Assembly (NCBI GenBank): GCA_012103255.1
Contig: WLXD01000006.1
Location: 186,001-250,000, forward strand
DNA length: 64,000 nt
Reading direction: 5' to 3'
Source of the DNA: Acidobacteriota bacterium
GTDB taxonomy: Bacteria; Acidobacteriota; UBA890; WLXD01
The notes under the pieces are model-generated. The model ran no database searches, was not told the origin of the DNA, and was given only the letters and a program-made list of their open reading frames with translations. Of this stretch, positions 25,939-32,591 are shown piece after piece. The position numbers and the translations under genes were made by a program. Every line of letters starts with the position of its first letter. The first letter of the stretch is position 1.

Positions 25939-26238
<300 letters not shown>

Positions 26239-26319
26239 CTCTGGCTCTCTCCTGCCTACGTCGTTCGTTCTTGCGATTAACTGGCTCCGACAGGGCCCGA
26301 TCAGCCCCGACGTCTCGCC

Positions 26320-26347
26320 AACATAACACAGCGCACCGCGGCGACAA
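26320..26347 (-). promoter_or_regulatory. Weak candidate promoter for the ferredoxin gene
   Basis: On the minus strand TTGTCG (26347-26342) and TATGTT (26325-26320) are separated by 16 bases, each matching four of six consensus positions. The -10 is 82 bases upstream of the fdxA start codon. This is plausible but weak. Confidence 0.3.
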
Positions 26348-26433
26348 ACAACTCGCGGCCGCCCATTTTCGGGCTGGCCAAATCTCCGCAGCGACGCCCG
26401 ATCCGGGCTCCTCGGCCCGCGACCGACGGTCGA

Positions 26434-26523
26434 ACCGCGGGTCGGAGCAAAAAAAACGCTGCACTTATGCACAAATTCATACGCCCAATTTTCGCCGAAA
26501 GGCGAAGCTGCGCGACCCGCGGT
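26434..26523. other. Structured AT-rich island between fdxA and nrdJ (possible RNA element)
   Basis: A perfect 11-base inverted repeat (ACCGCGGGTCG at 26434-26444 and CGACCCGCGGT at 26513-26523) encloses 68 bases holding an A8 run (26449-26456), a TGCA-ctta-TGCA hairpin (26460-26471) and a perfect 6-bp hairpin with a GAAA tetraloop (26491-26506). The closing stem can be extended outward by CGGT/ACCG (26427-26430 with 26528-26531). It lies upstream of both candidate flanking promoters, so it is not obviously part of either leader. The strand of any RNA is unknown. The rest of the 521-base gap (26239-26759) holds only the sites listed separately. Confidence 0.4.
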
Positions 26524-26592
26524 GAACACCGCTGCCACTGAACACGCGACCACATAGGCGCCTGACGCTCCTGCGGGTTTTCAACACCTTTT

Positions 26593-26759: not shown

Positions 26760-29570
26760 ATGCCCCCAGAAAAGAACCTACCTCCCGGTTCGAGTACCTC
26801 TAAAGCCGCCGGTTCCGGCAAGAACACGTCCGTGCACAGTGATGCGCAACAGGACACAGAGGGCGCCGCGACACCCGGCGGGGCACCGGGTCTGACCTTC
26901 ACGCGCTACTTCTCCACCGACGGCGTACACCCGTACGACGCTGTCGAATGGGAACAGCGCGATGCAGTGATCGAGCGGCACGACGGTGACATCGTCTTCG
27001 AGCAGCGCGGCGTCCAGTTCCCCGTCTCCTGGAGCCAGCGCGCCACCAACATCGTCGCCTCGAAGTACTTCCACGGCCAACTCGGCGGTCCCGAGCGCGA
27101 AACGAGCCTCAAGCAGCTGATCGGCCGTGTGGTCGGCCGCATCACGCAGTGGGGCATCGACGGCGGCTACTTTGGCTCCGACGAGTCCGCCGAGGTGTTC
27201 TCGGAGGAACTCACCCATCTCCTCTTGCACCAGTACGTGGCTTTCAATTCGCCAGTCTGGTTCAACCTCGGTGTGGAAGGCGAGCGTCAGCAGGCCTCGG
27301 CCTGCTACATCAACCACGTCGACGACAAGATGGAGTCGATCCTCGATCTCGCCAAGACCGAGGGGCTGATCTTCAAGTGGGGATCCGGTGCGGGTGTGAA
27401 CCTCTCGCGCCTGCGCGGCTCGACCGAGAACCTGTCTGGCGGCGGCGTAGCTTCGGGCCCGGTGTCGTTCATGAAGGGCTTTGACGCCTTCGCGGGAGTC
27501 ATCAAGAGCGGCGGCAAGACCCGACGCGCGGCCAAGATGATCATCCTCGACGTGGACCACCCGGACATTGTCGAATTCATCGAGTGCAAGGGGGCCGAAG
27601 AGCGTAAGGCATGGGCACTGATCGAAGCCGGATACGACCCCGCGCTCGACGGCGAGGCCTACGCTTCGGTGTTCTTCCAGAACGCGAACCACTCCGTTCG
27701 TGCTTCGGACGCGTTCATGCGCGCCGTGGAATCCGGCAGCGAGTGGGAGACCCTGGGCAGAGTCGATGGCCAGCCCGTCTCGAGCCACTCCGCCCGCGAC
27801 ATCATGGCGAAGATCGCCTACGAGACCTGGCACTGCGGCGACCCGGGAATGCAGTACGACGACACCATCAACCGGTGGCATACCTGCAAAGCAACCGATC
27901 GCATCTATGGGTCGAACCCTTGCTCCGAGTACATGTTCCTCGACGAGACCGCGTGCAACCTGGCGTCGCTGAACTTGATGAAGTTCATGCAGGAAGACGG
28001 TTCCGTCGATGTCCAGAGCTACCGGAAGGCGGTGGCGACCACCTTCACGGCCATGGAGATCGTTGTCGGGTACGCGGACTACCCCACCGAGGCGGTCACG
28101 AAGAACTCGCACGACTATCGTCCCCTCGGCCTCGGCTACGCCAACCTCGGCGCGCTCCTGATGCATCAGGGTCTTCCCTATGACTCAGAGAACGGCCGCA
28201 CCTACTCGGCCGCGCTGACCGCCATCATGACGGGCGAGGCGTACGCGCAGTCCGCCAAGCTGGCCGCAGTGAAGGGACCGTTCGCCGGCTACCCGGAGAA
28301 CGAGGAGTCGATGCTGGGCGTGATGCAAATGCATCGCGACGCCGCATACGACATCGACGACAGCAACATCCCGGCCGATATGGCCCGCAGCGCCCGCGAG
28401 GTGTGGGACCGAGCTGTGGAACTTGGTGAAGAGCACGGCTACCGCAACGCGCAGGCGACGGTTCTCGCGCCCACGGGCACCATCAGTTTCATGATGGATT
28501 GCGACACCACGGGTGTGGAGCCTGACCTGGCACTTGTGAAGCACAAGCGACTCGTCGGTGGCGGCACACTCAAGATTGTCAACGAGTCCGTGCCCACTGC
28601 GTTGCAGCGTCTCGGCTACACCAGCGACCAGGTGGAGAGCATCGTCGCTCATATCGACGAGACCGGCACCATCGAAGGCGCCGAACATCTGCAGGACAAG
28701 CACCTCGCGGTGTTCGACTGTGCCTTCCGTGCCCCGGCCGGCGAGCGTTCGATTCACCACATGGGCCATATTCGGATGTTGGCAGCGACTCAACCGTTTA
28801 TTTCCGGCGCGATCTCCAAGACGGTGAACATGCCGGCCGAGTCCAACGTCGAGGACATCGCCGACGCCTACGCCGAGGCCTGGCGGCTCGGCATCAAGGC
28901 CGTCGCGATCTACCGCGACGGCAGCAAGATGGCGCAGCCGCTTGCGACCAGCGCAGAGGGCAAGTCGGACAAACGACCCGAGGTCGTGGTCGCTGGCCCG
29001 GTGCGCCGCAAGCTGCCGGACGAGCGTCACTCGTTTACCCATAAGTTCGGGATCGCCGGGCACAAGGGTTACATCACGGTTGGCCTCTACGAAGATGGCT
29101 CGCCGGGTGAGGTGTTCATCACCATGGCCAAGGAGGGTTCGACGATCTCGGGCCTGATGGACTCCTTTGCGAGCATGACCTCGTTCGCCCTGCAGTACGG
29201 CGTGCCACTGAAGTTCCTCGTGCAGAAGTGTTCGAACGCGCGCTTCGAGCCCTCCGGCTACACAGGCAATCAGGAGATCCCGTTCGCCAAGTCGATTACC
29301 GACTACATCTTCCGATGGATGGCGAACCGCTTCCTGACCGACGCCGAGAAGGTGGAGATCGGGCTCGTCGCAGCCGACTCCGTCGCGACAGATGCCGACG
29401 ACGAAGGCGTCGAGGCTGCCGACGACACCAGCATCGAGACGACCTCCGATTCGGTCGCGTTCGTTTCGCCCACAGACGCGCCGACATGTCCTGACTGCGG
29501 CTCGTTGATGGTGGTTAACGGCAATTGCCATAAGTGCCAGAACTGCGGTTCCACCTCCGGCTGCTCATAG
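26760..29570 (+). CDS. nrdJ: Adenosylcobalamin-dependent (class II) ribonucleotide reductase
   Basis: This 936-residue enzyme reduces ribonucleotides to deoxyribonucleotides using adenosylcobalamin instead of a tyrosyl radical. Residues 1-40 are a low-complexity extension. Cys182 (in SACYINHVDD) is a likely redox-active partner, and NPCSEYMFLDETACNLAS at 386-403 supplies the thiyl-radical Cys388, Glu390 and the partner Cys399. The C-terminus ends in a zinc-ribbon-like segment CPDCGSLM...CHKCQNCGSTSGCS, typical of long NrdJ. The ATG has GGAGAG eight bases upstream. It is a single-gene unit, with NrdR-like boxes before it and an intrinsic terminator after it. It makes the cell cobalamin-dependent for DNA synthesis unless another class exists elsewhere. 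Confidence 0.96.
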   Translation: MPPEKNLPPGSSTSKAAGSGKNTSVHSDAQQDTEGAATPGGAPGLTFTRYFSTDGVHPYDAVEWEQRDAVIERHDGDIVFEQRGVQFPVSWSQRATNIVASKYFHGQLGGPERETSLKQLIGRVVGRITQWGIDGGYFGSDESAEVFSEELTHLLLHQYVAFNSPVWFNLGVEGERQQASACYINHVDDKMESILDLAKTEGLIFKWGSGAGVNLSRLRGSTENLSGGGVASGPVSFMKGFDAFAGVIKSGGKTRRAAKMIILDVDHPDIVEFIECKGAEERKAWALIEAGYDPALDGEAYASVFFQNANHSVRASDAFMRAVESGSEWETLGRVDGQPVSSHSARDIMAKIAYETWHCGDPGMQYDDTINRWHTCKATDRIYGSNPCSEYMFLDETACNLASLNLMKFMQEDGSVDVQSYRKAVATTFTAMEIVVGYADYPTEAVTKNSHDYRPLGLGYANLGALLMHQGLPYDSENGRTYSAALTAIMTGEAYAQSAKLAAVKGPFAGYPENEESMLGVMQMHRDAAYDIDDSNIPADMARSAREVWDRAVELGEEHGYRNAQATVLAPTGTISFMMDCDTTGVEPDLALVKHKRLVGGGTLKIVNESVPTALQRLGYTSDQVESIVAHIDETGTIEGAEHLQDKHLAVFDCAFRAPAGERSIHHMGHIRMLAATQPFISGAISKTVNMPAESNVEDIADAYAEAWRLGIKAVAIYRDGSKMAQPLATSAEGKSDKRPEVVVAGPVRRKLPDERHSFTHKFGIAGHKGYITVGLYEDGSPGEVFITMAKEGSTISGLMDSFASMTSFALQYGVPLKFLVQKCSNARFEPSGYTGNQEIPFAKSITDYIFRWMANRFLTDAEKVEIGLVAADSVATDADDEGVEAADDTSIETTSDSVAFVSPTDAPTCPDCGSLMVVNGNCHKCQNCGSTSGCS

Positions 29571-29614
29571 AACGCCGATACGGGAACTGCTTACGAAGCT
29601 GACAGATACGTAGC

Positions 29615-29680
29615 GCAACGCGGTGAGCGGGCCGCACTGGGGTGGGCGGCGGCCTTGCTCACCGCGTTGCCATTTTCTTT
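29615..29680 (+). terminator. Intrinsic terminator after nrdJ (long loop)
   Basis: A perfect 14-base inverted repeat (GCAACGCGGTGAGC at 29615-29628 and GCTCACCGCGTTGC at 29657-29670) is followed by CATTTTCTTT. The 28-base loop itself contains GGCCGC and GCGGCC segments that can extend the stem. Confidence 0.8.
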
Positions 29681-29732
29681 CGCAAATCGCTGGGGTGGGT
29701 CGATTGCATCGAACGGCCCCTGCGTCCGGGAA

Positions 29733-29819
29733 AGCAGGAACCGACGGGCCGGTCGGGGCCGGGGGCTGCCTCCCGCCGCCGGTTGAGGGCTGCGCCGACT
29801 GGCCCGTCAATTTCCTGCT
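29733..29819 (+). promoter_or_regulatory. Strongly structured 5' leader element before the threonine dehydrogenase gene
   Basis: AGCAGGAA (29733-29740) pairs with TTCCTGCT (29812-29819). After a 2x3 internal loop, GACGGGCCGGTCGG (29743-29756) pairs with CCGACTGGCCCGTC (29795-29808), giving a 14-bp helix with one G-U pair. The 38-base GC-rich apical region has further pairing potential. The element ends 18 bases before the ATG, leaving the AGGAG ribosome-binding site (29826-29830) just outside. There is no T-run, so it is not a simple terminator. It may be a regulatory leader; I match it to no known riboswitch. Confidence 0.5.
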
Positions 29820-29837
29820 CCGTCCAGGAGCCTCGCA

Positions 29838-30854
29838 ATGCGCAAGCCCGTTGTCCTGATCTCAGGCGCTGCCGGCGAGATCGGCCATGCCCTGATCGAC
29901 CACCTGGTTGAAGCCGGCGGCCGCAGCATCGTGACGCTGGATCTACGTCCGCTTGAACCGGCCCTGACGACCAAGGTTTCGCGCGCGTTCACGGGATCGA
30001 TCCTCGACCAGGCGCTCCTGGAGTCGATTGAGGCGGAATTCGCGATCGATCGGATATTCCATCTTGCTGCGCTCCTTTCCACGCGAAGCGAGTTCACTCC
30101 CGTGGCCGCGCACGAGGTGAACGTACGCGGCACGCTGAACCTCCTCGAACTGGCCGCTTCGCAGGCGCGCAGTCGGAACCAGAACGTCGTGTTCTTCTAT
30201 CCGAGTTCGATCGCGGCCTACGGAGTCTCTTCCGATGCGGTCATGCCCGAAACGGGCTGGGACGAATGCTCACACAACCAACCCATAACGATGTACGGGT
30301 GCAACAAGCTGTATTGCGAGCATCTCGGTCGCTACTACGCGGGGCACTACCGGCAGCTCGACGCCGAGCCGGTCGGTGGCAAAGTCGACTTCAGGTCGAT
30401 CCGGTTCCCTGGCCTGATCAGCGCCCACACCGTGCCGTCGGGCGGTACCAGCGACTATGCCCCCGAGATGATTCACGCCGCCGCGCAGGGTGAGCCCTAT
30501 GAGTGCTTCGTGAGGCCCGACACGCGGATCCCGTTTATGGCCATGCCCGACGCCGTGGGCGCCATCCTGGGCCTCATGGAGGCTCCCAGAGACTCCCTCA
30601 CACGGTCCGTCTACAACGTCGGGGCCTTCGCTCCCAGTGCCGGCGATTTCCGCTCATTGGTGGAGGACGCGTTCCCGAGCGCCGCCATCGGCGAGGCAAT
30701 CGATACGAAGCGGCAGCGCATCGTCGATTCGTGGCCTGATGATGTGGACTGCTCGGCGGCGCGGCGTGATTGGGGCCTGGCGCCCGAGTACGACCTCGTG
30801 CGCGCGTTCGACGAGTATCTGGTGCCTACGATCGCCGCGCTGTATCAGAGTTAG
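29838..30854 (+). CDS. SDR-type NAD-dependent L-threonine 3-dehydrogenase
   Basis: This 338-residue extended SDR has GAAGEIG at residues 10-16 (NAD), Ser123/Ser124 in YPSSIAAYG and the catalytic YGCNK (Tyr153, Lys157). The segment GGTSDYAPEMIHAAAQGEPY, followed by RPDTRIPFMAMPDAV, is characteristic of the epimerase-like threonine dehydrogenases rather than sugar epimerases. It oxidises L-threonine to 2-amino-3-ketobutyrate, which is cleaved to glycine and acetyl-CoA by Kbl. No kbl gene is in the window. AGGAG precedes the ATG, and a structured leader precedes that. Confidence 0.82.
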   Translation: MRKPVVLISGAAGEIGHALIDHLVEAGGRSIVTLDLRPLEPALTTKVSRAFTGSILDQALLESIEAEFAIDRIFHLAALLSTRSEFTPVAAHEVNVRGTLNLLELAASQARSRNQNVVFFYPSSIAAYGVSSDAVMPETGWDECSHNQPITMYGCNKLYCEHLGRYYAGHYRQLDAEPVGGKVDFRSIRFPGLISAHTVPSGGTSDYAPEMIHAAAQGEPYECFVRPDTRIPFMAMPDAVGAILGLMEAPRDSLTRSVYNVGAFAPSAGDFRSLVEDAFPSAAIGEAIDTKRQRIVDSWPDDVDCSAARRDWGLAPEYDLVRAFDEYLVPTIAALYQS

Positions 30855-30857
30855 GCC

Positions 30858-32591
30858 TCAATAGGCAGCTGCCGATCCGGAGCGCCGACCATCGGCCACC
30901 GCGAGACGCGCTCCGTCCGGGTAGATCCAGATGCAGTGTGCATCCCCCTGGATCCTGCCTGTGCCGAGCTCATGCCCCATGCCCATCAGAGCATCCGCCG
31001 TGCCCGTCGGAAACGCGCGCTCCAGTCGAACCACGTCGGGCATCCACTGGTGGTGGATCCGCGGCGCATCGACCGCCTGAGCCAGGTTCATTTCGAAGTC
31101 GACCAGGTTCACCACGAGGCGGAACACCGTATTGATGATCGTCTTCCCACCGGGCGAGCCCAGAAGAGCGACGGGCTTGCCATCGCGCGCGAGGATCGTC
31201 GGCGTCATCGATGACAAAGGACGCTTCCCGGCCGCGATCAGGTTCGGATCAGTGCCAACGTAGCCGCGCTCGTCGGTCATTCCCGGCCACTCGTTGAAAT
31301 CTCCCATCTCGTTGTTGAGCAGGAACCCGGTCCCCGGAGCAACAACCTTGGAGCCGAATCCCGCCTCGATCGTGTACGTGGTGGAAACGGCGTTGCCGAA
31401 CGAGTCCACTACCGAGTAGTGCGTCGTCTCGGGAGACTCCGGCGCAGTGAGAATGGCGGCGCCGAGATCGGCGCTCTTGCGCGCCGTATCGGGGGAAATC
31501 GCTGCCGCAAGTTCGACCGCGCGATCCTTGGCCACGAGCCAGTCCACCGGGACGTCGTGATAATCGGCGTCTCCAAGATGGGTCGCCCGGTCCATATAGG
31601 CCTGCCGCATCGACTCCACCATCAGGTGCGCCAGCGGCGCACCGGTCGGATCGGCTCCCTCAAGGTCGAAATTCTCGAGGATGTTGAGCATGCTAACCAA
31701 CGTCGTGCCGCCGGACGACGGCGGCCCCATCGAAATCACGTCCCAGCCGCGGTAGCTCCCGCGCACTGGCTCGCGCTCGACGGGCCGATAGTTGTCCAAG
31801 TCTGCAGCGGTGATCAAACCATCGTTGGCTTCCATCGCAGCAACGAGACGCTCAGCAATGGGACCGCGGTAGAAGGCGTCAGCACCCCCAGTCGCGATCT
31901 GATCGAGCGACCAGGCAAGGTCCGGCTGCACGAACTTCTCACCAGCAGCATAGGGGCTCCCGTCCGGGTGCAGAAACGCCTCGGCGCTGCCCGCGTAGCG
32001 TTGGAATGTCGGCGCGACTCGCCGGAAGGAACCCGCAAGATAGGGATCCACCCAGAATCCATCAGCGGCGAGCTGTTGCGCGGGGCGGACGAGATCAGCC
32101 CAGTCCATGCGGCCCCACTCGTGCGCCTTCTCGAACCCGGCAACTGTTCCCGGCACGCCGACGGCACGCCAGCCGACGTAGTTGACGCCACGCACGGGTC
32201 GTCCGTCTTCGCCGAGGTACATCTCTGCATGCGCAACGGCCGGCGCCATTTCACGAAAGTCGAGCGTCGTGTAGCGGTCCTCGTCGGCCAGGTAGATGAC
32301 CATGAAGCCGCCACCCCCGAGATTGCCGGCCTGCGGATGGGTCACCGCCAAGGCCAGCCCAACCGCAATGGCGGCATCGATTGCGTTTCCGCCGGCGCGG
32401 AGCACCTCGAGACCAGCTCGTGTCGCATGCCCGTCTACGCTCACAACGGCGCCGTGTTCGCCGACGGCCAGCCGGCCGAACTGGACGGCGGCATTGTCCT
32501 GGCCGGTCGCCGCACCGGAGACACGAGGCCCCAAAGCAACTGTGCCCGCCAGGGCGAGAACCACAAGCCCAGTCATCCAACGCTTCTTCAT
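30858..32591 (-). CDS. ggt: Gamma-glutamyltransferase (exported)
   Basis: This 577-residue protein has a clear signal peptide (MKKRWMTGLVVLALAGTVAL and AxA region near residue 27). The autoprocessing/nucleophile motif TTHYSVVD begins at Thr389, and the Gly-rich GSPGGKTI is in the small subunit. Ggt self-cleaves into two subunits and hydrolyses or transfers gamma-glutamyl groups from glutathione and related compounds in the periplasm. It is a single-gene unit, convergent with the threonine dehydrogenase (three bases between stops) and downstream of the MidA-like gene on the same strand. Confidence 0.93.
   Translation of the reverse strand: MKKRWMTGLVVLALAGTVALGPRVSGAATGQDNAAVQFGRLAVGEHGAVVSVDGHATRAGLEVLRAGGNAIDAAIAVGLALAVTHPQAGNLGGGGFMVIYLADEDRYTTLDFREMAPAVAHAEMYLGEDGRPVRGVNYVGWRAVGVPGTVAGFEKAHEWGRMDWADLVRPAQQLAADGFWVDPYLAGSFRRVAPTFQRYAGSAEAFLHPDGSPYAAGEKFVQPDLAWSLDQIATGGADAFYRGPIAERLVAAMEANDGLITAADLDNYRPVEREPVRGSYRGWDVISMGPPSSGGTTLVSMLNILENFDLEGADPTGAPLAHLMVESMRQAYMDRATHLGDADYHDVPVDWLVAKDRAVELAAAISPDTARKSADLGAAILTAPESPETTHYSVVDSFGNAVSTTYTIEAGFGSKVVAPGTGFLLNNEMGDFNEWPGMTDERGYVGTDPNLIAAGKRPLSSMTPTILARDGKPVALLGSPGGKTIINTVFRLVVNLVDFEMNLAQAVDAPRIHHQWMPDVVRLERAFPTGTADALMGMGHELGTGRIQGDAHCIWIYPDGARLAVADGRRSGSAAAY

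Follow-up and report, generated by a model that had tools for sequence, protein, structure and literature searches.

In one class of Acidobacteriota, two near-invariant hairpins, here called A and B, lie behind nrdJ, the gene of adenosylcobalamin-dependent ribonucleotide reductase. Our reading, to which we give about an even chance, is that they are paired structured RNA elements confined to this class and located in the 3' untranslated part of the nrdJ transcript, where they would act in termination or stabilisation and have, in addition, a sequence-specific partner. The stretch of DNA analysed (64,000 nucleotides, below 'the window') comes from a genome of 4.81 Mb (9 contigs, 95% complete), and the features on which the argument turns are these:

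26760-29570, plus strand: nrdJ, adenosylcobalamin-dependent ribonucleotide reductase (NCBIfam PRK06556, 1399 bits against a cut-off of 859; TIGR02504, 586 bits against a cut-off of 400)
29615-29670, plus strand: element A, a second hyperconserved hairpin 3' of nrdJ, earlier taken for the nrdJ terminator (7/9 class genomes; top 60-bp segment of the syntenic region; fold)
29673-29679, plus strand: T-rich tail (TTTTCTT) that follows A in the own genus of the window only
29733-29740, plus strand: variable basal stem of B, 5' strand, pairing with 29812-29819 in the fold
29742-29808, plus strand: core of element B, a 67-nt hairpin with a 14-bp closing stem and a conserved apical part (55 of its 67 columns are invariant across 7 genomes, without indels; compensatory stem pairs; single copy in its own genome)
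29743-29756 with 29795-29808, plus strand: 14-bp helix of B (fold)
29812-29819, plus strand: variable basal stem of B, 3' strand, pairing with 29733-29740 in the fold
29838-30854, plus strand: tdh, SDR-type L-threonine 3-dehydrogenase (top PDB matches mostly of that name, best E 4.9e-55), adjoining B in the own genus only
30858-32591, minus strand: ggt, gamma-glutamyltransferase, convergent; the gene that comes immediately after B in G005, G006 and G007, without tdh between

B was first noticed in a preliminary description of the window, and refolding of 29733-29819 (87 nt) reproduced the geometry given there: an outer helix of 8 bp and an inner one of 14 bp, separated by a 2x3 internal loop, and above them a GC-rich apical part of 38 nt. 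The minimum free energy is -59.3 kcal/mol as against -43.0 +/- 3.5 kcal/mol for dinucleotide shuffles (n=200; z -4.65), none of which (0/200) was equally stable, and the -130 to -1 region of tdh folds more stably in the window than in any of 79 other tdh orthologues. The setting is also as it had been described: 18 nt separate the end of the hairpin from the ATG (29838) with AGGAG between them, a terminator scan finds no terminator-like T-run 3' of B in the window genome, and the separate hairpin further upstream is our element A with TTTTCTT behind it. In relatives the letters of the basal stem change, and its pairing, judged by eye, is retained in some (G002, G006) and not in all. Within the invariant apical part, 11 nt (GCTGCCTCCCG, 29765-29775) equal the reverse complement of a stretch universal in 16S rRNA, the EUB338 probe region, so that the loop of B might conceivably pair with 16S rRNA. 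This match may be due to chance; no exact copy of the 18-nt 16S rRNA stretch was found in the own genome, perhaps because the assembly is without an rRNA operon.

How tightly both hairpins are held can be read from the synteny of the window with its two congeners (G001, G002), which extends over most of its length. Among 33,337 sliding 60-bp segments (about 33 kb) aligned to both congeners, with a mean identity of 0.658, A ranks best (0.983) and B third (0.95); the second-best segment starts at 26062, inside a minus-strand ORF (25939-26553) that, from its cysteine motif, presumably encodes a ferredoxin. Hardly any of the protein-coding sequence around them is conserved as tightly as A and B. 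The sequence that flanks them drifts to about 70-75% identity, and the nrdJ protein itself is 86-87% identical within the genus, with values of 75% for G003 and 71-75% for G004-G006. Coding does not seem to be what keeps the letters fixed: the variable columns of B in the seven genomes have no three-base period, the frame of B relative to A differs between genomes, and the three congeners do not differ from one another in the A hairpin at any codon position. We considered A as a short protein gene and rejected it, since in the window no start codon in that frame precedes A after the nrdJ stop, and G003 carries an in-frame TAG. A is readable in frame in sister-family genomes, and in G004 and G005 it forms the signal-peptide-like coding start of a lipoprotein-like ORF of 312-315 aa located between A and B (L118:490-1428 and L119:3319-4266). 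Homologues of this ORF elsewhere align from about residue 59 only; this looks like a case of RNA element A having been incorporated into coding sequence.

Changes that do occur within the hairpins mostly respect pairing. In the closing stem of B, three pairs have changed on both sides and are still paired, and the nested apical stem adds one more; with these four compensatory pairs, 96.7% of the cells of the nested model are paired, compared with 17-53% (at most 52.5%) when the model is slid along the alignment. The covariation score of B was reached by 3/500 shuffles and its count of both-sided pairs by 86/500, statistics that are weak given only four distinct B sequences. A has three compensatory pairs with 96.4% of cells paired, and 28/500 shuffles reached its covariation score. 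Compensatory change is hence seen in A as well as B, and from the alignments both are probably structured RNA elements, few distinct sequences and weak statistics being the limits of this judgement. The nature of the non-Watson-Crick cells points the same way: read on the nrdJ-sense strand, A has 18 G-U against 2 A-C, and B has 14 against 2 (nested model) or 8 against 2 (hairpin model). In 14/14 rows of A and B the better fold is that of the plus strand, a comparison biased to that strand since the structures were derived on it. The apical part of B has nearly invariant letters, yet its best fold differs between the two families, and the apical hairpin proposed by RNAalifold contains no covarying pair. 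A loop-loop (kissing) interaction between A and B was tried and discarded: in four genomes, between 188 and 1314 out of 2000 shuffles of matched composition reached its duplex energies.

The window's class is represented by nine genomes (G000-G008) within a phylum set of 396, of which 387 lie outside the class. A DNA query spanning A and B matches eight of the nine. A model of the B core (29742-29808) detects seven of them at E <= 3.4e-13 with permissive filters and, with stricter filters, the same seven of all 396 phylum genomes, so that B was found in 0/387 Acidobacteriota genomes outside the class by this search. The A model (29615-29670) likewise detects 7/9 class genomes, at E <= 1.2e-18 and 81-92 bits; its weak matches outside the class (in 15/396 phylum genomes, 23-31 bits) we take as chance, the five that were checked having no nrdJ within the fetched 1.8-3.1 kb, and no confident match to A was obtained in the 387 outside genomes. 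The two misses each of A and of B within the class are explained by contig ends or incomplete nrdJ: the G003 contig ends 8 nt into the B core, that of G007 begins 3 nt before B, which means A cannot show there, and nrdJ of G008 was recovered only for query residues 25-491 of 936. Assemblies are thus broken at the base of B in two of nine genomes (contig end in G003, L120:13757-13777; contig start in G007, L115:1-10), as if the hairpin stopped assembly or sequencing. Each of the seven genomes has one copy of B, and G006 has, by the B model, one diverged second copy (L117:7494-7561) beside an aquaporin-like gene, which has flanking letters in common with the first copy and a changed 3' half of the apical part. 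We dismissed a repeat family or REP-like element because blastn of B against its own genome returns itself only (other matches at E >= 0.27), and a mobile or phage origin because the B-core pattern has no match in viral contigs and B none in plasmids or phages.

Gene order tells to which neighbour B belongs. Three genomes of the window's genus (G000, G001, G002) have nrdJ, A, B and tdh followed by convergent ggt, and it is only here (3/3) that tdh adjoins B. G006 has nrdJ, A, B and convergent ggt; G005 has the same with the 315-aa lipoprotein-like ORF between A and B; G004 runs from the nrdJ end through A, the 312-aa ORF and B into other genes; and in G007, whose upstream side is not assembled, B is followed by convergent ggt. 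B has the same sense as nrdJ in every case and lies 3' of it in all genomes whose upstream side is assembled, which leads us to conclude from gene orders across the class that B tracks nrdJ, not tdh.

This bears on the earlier proposal that B is a metabolite- or protein-responsive leader of tdh. In the window that proposal is a natural one, with B close to the ATG, AGGAG behind it and no promoter recognisable between B and tdh by a consensus scan; a tdh transcript starting upstream would therefore carry B. Elsewhere it finds no support. B is absent upstream of tdh in 79/79 orthologues outside the genus (400 nt upstream, with chance-level matches of 11-23 nt only), and four sister-family genomes have B without tdh beside it. 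Named relatives of the tdh protein come mostly from Acidobacteriota MAGs, and nrdJ is near tdh at 5/79 orthologue loci outside the genus, in 5/5 downstream of tdh and never on the leader side. Even within the genus, a stretch that by eye is promoter-like, TTGACA-N17-CATTGT, separates B from tdh in both congeners; it ends 6 nt before the tdh ATG, leaving a nearly leaderless start, and scores below the cut-off of the consensus promoter scan. The corresponding part of the window (29809-29837) is without the roughly 40 nt that carry this stretch and has a Shine-Dalgarno site instead, which suggests that the mode of tdh expression may have changed within one genus. Only in the window's own genome, with the ATG near, a Shine-Dalgarno site and no visible promoter behind, can B be physically part of the tdh leader. 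Nor do known families help: neither A nor B has a covariance-model match in Rfam at gathering score, and a search of 29560-29900 at E <= 10 returned nine matches, each of them to a microRNA, lncRNA or antisense-RNA model and with a score far under the cut-off. Of the earlier idea of a functional leader RNA, we therefore keep the structured RNA, on account of its near-invariant core, compensatory closing-stem pairs and sense-strand wobble bias, and drop the tdh-specific sensing; a cis-regulatory leader of tdh, riboswitch-like or protein-responsive, appears to us most improbable.

If A and B belong to nrdJ, their likely task would be to generate the 3' end of the nrdJ mRNA, with which they would be cotranscribed, and to shield it. 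The tails behind them are compatible with one common function where the nrdJ unit ends. A is followed by a T-rich tail in the own genus (weaker in G001 than in the window) and by none in the sister family; the tail of B is T-rich in G004-G007 (5-7 T of 10, with one N in G006) and weaker in the own genus (3-5 T of 10), and a scan for terminator-like sites behind B found none in the window or in L023. Transcription might thus be terminated by whichever hairpin has the T-rich tail, which is A for the own genus and B for the sister family, and both might block 3' exonucleases or persist as processed stable RNA; since B lies behind the T-run of A in the own genus, it may there be off the main nrdJ transcript. 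What these tails do not account for alone is the fixed letters. If A and B were common intrinsic terminators separating nrdJ from the genes around it, with B acting in both directions where ggt is convergent and conservation being a by-product, this would agree with the T-rich tails and with the location of B, which is flanked by convergent genes in G005 and G006 and adjoins convergent ggt in G007. Terminators, however, conserve a stem and a T-run, not letters, whereas here stem and apical letters are nearly fixed while neighbouring sequence drifts, and the B core is retained in three genomes without a terminator-like tail. A plain terminator needs no conserved sequence, so a role in termination alone does not explain A and B, and we consider this account somewhat unlikely. 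Near-invariant letters instead imply selection on sequence as well as pairing, from which we infer a sequence-specific partner; this could be an RNA-binding protein, RNA polymerase or another RNA.

Another option is that the pair encodes a processed, trans-acting small RNA, derived from the 3'UTR and with targets elsewhere. Hyperconserved sequence, the terminator-like 3' end in the sister family and the independent persistence of A and B with the 312-315-aa ORF between them (G004, G005) would suit such an RNA, but most of the letters conserved are taken up by very stable double-stranded stems, which does not resemble an open seed region, and to our minds this option is unlikely. A palindrome working at the DNA level, be it a binding or recombination site or the relic of a mobile element, draws on the long near-palindromic arms and on the diverged copy by the aquaporin-like gene in G006; it is hard to reconcile with a place and strand fixed relative to nrdJ, a B that is otherwise single-copy, wobble-type pairs that lean to one strand and the lack of matches in viral contigs, plasmids and phages, and we judge it very unlikely. 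Going beyond our preferred reading of A and B as 3'-end elements of the nrdJ mRNA, one may envisage a new paired-hairpin RNA class that couples this end to the state of the cell (cobalamin or deoxynucleotide supply) or to RNA polymerase, the latter in the antiterminating manner of the HK022 put RNA, which is made of two hairpins and, by binding RNA polymerase, suppresses termination further downstream. We regard this as quite unlikely, though if true, control of the reductase would be exerted at the 3' end of the mRNA and not through a 5' leader.

As for known systems, A and B have in common with orphan candidate structured RNAs from comparative genomics of bacterial intergenic regions (PMC2864571, PMC8632094) a conserved intergenic structure with some covariation, a fixed gene neighbour and restriction to a clade; they differ in lying downstream of their gene partner, not upstream, in a conservation that is mostly one of letters and in having no Rfam family. 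Intrinsic (Rho-independent) terminators are likewise stable GC-rich hairpins at gene ends, with a T-rich tail that A and B have in some genomes, but the sequence of A and B including the apical part is nearly invariant, and the tail of B is weak in the own genus. With bacterial 3'UTR elements and 3'UTR-derived small RNAs (reviewed in PMC7821165), the likeness would be that of a conserved RNA at the mRNA 3' end with a terminator-like end in some genomes; A and B have no open conserved seed. With put RNA (PMC9378689) they would share a position in nascent RNA, behind one gene and ahead of whatever comes next, and the make-up of two conserved, GC-rich hairpins; they are without phage context, and no sequence relation was seen. 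Yfr6, which is reported near nrdJ in one cyanobacterium (PMC1242208), we set aside as unrelated in place and kind, and a P. acnes passage on nrdJ (PMC3848588) concerns cobalamin riboswitches of other reductases. We found no description of the A/B element in the literature, which is not proof of its absence from print. This suggests A and B are an undescribed candidate among conserved orphan structured RNAs, unusual in their downstream position and degree of conservation.

As seen here, a conspicuous hairpin immediately ahead of a start codon can belong to the gene upstream, and it is only comparison across genomes that reveals this. Non-genic sequence is seldom fixed so tightly, and where it is, there should be a function worth looking for. 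Ribonucleotide reductase is a central control point of DNA synthesis, and its regulation from the 3' end of its mRNA would be unusual.
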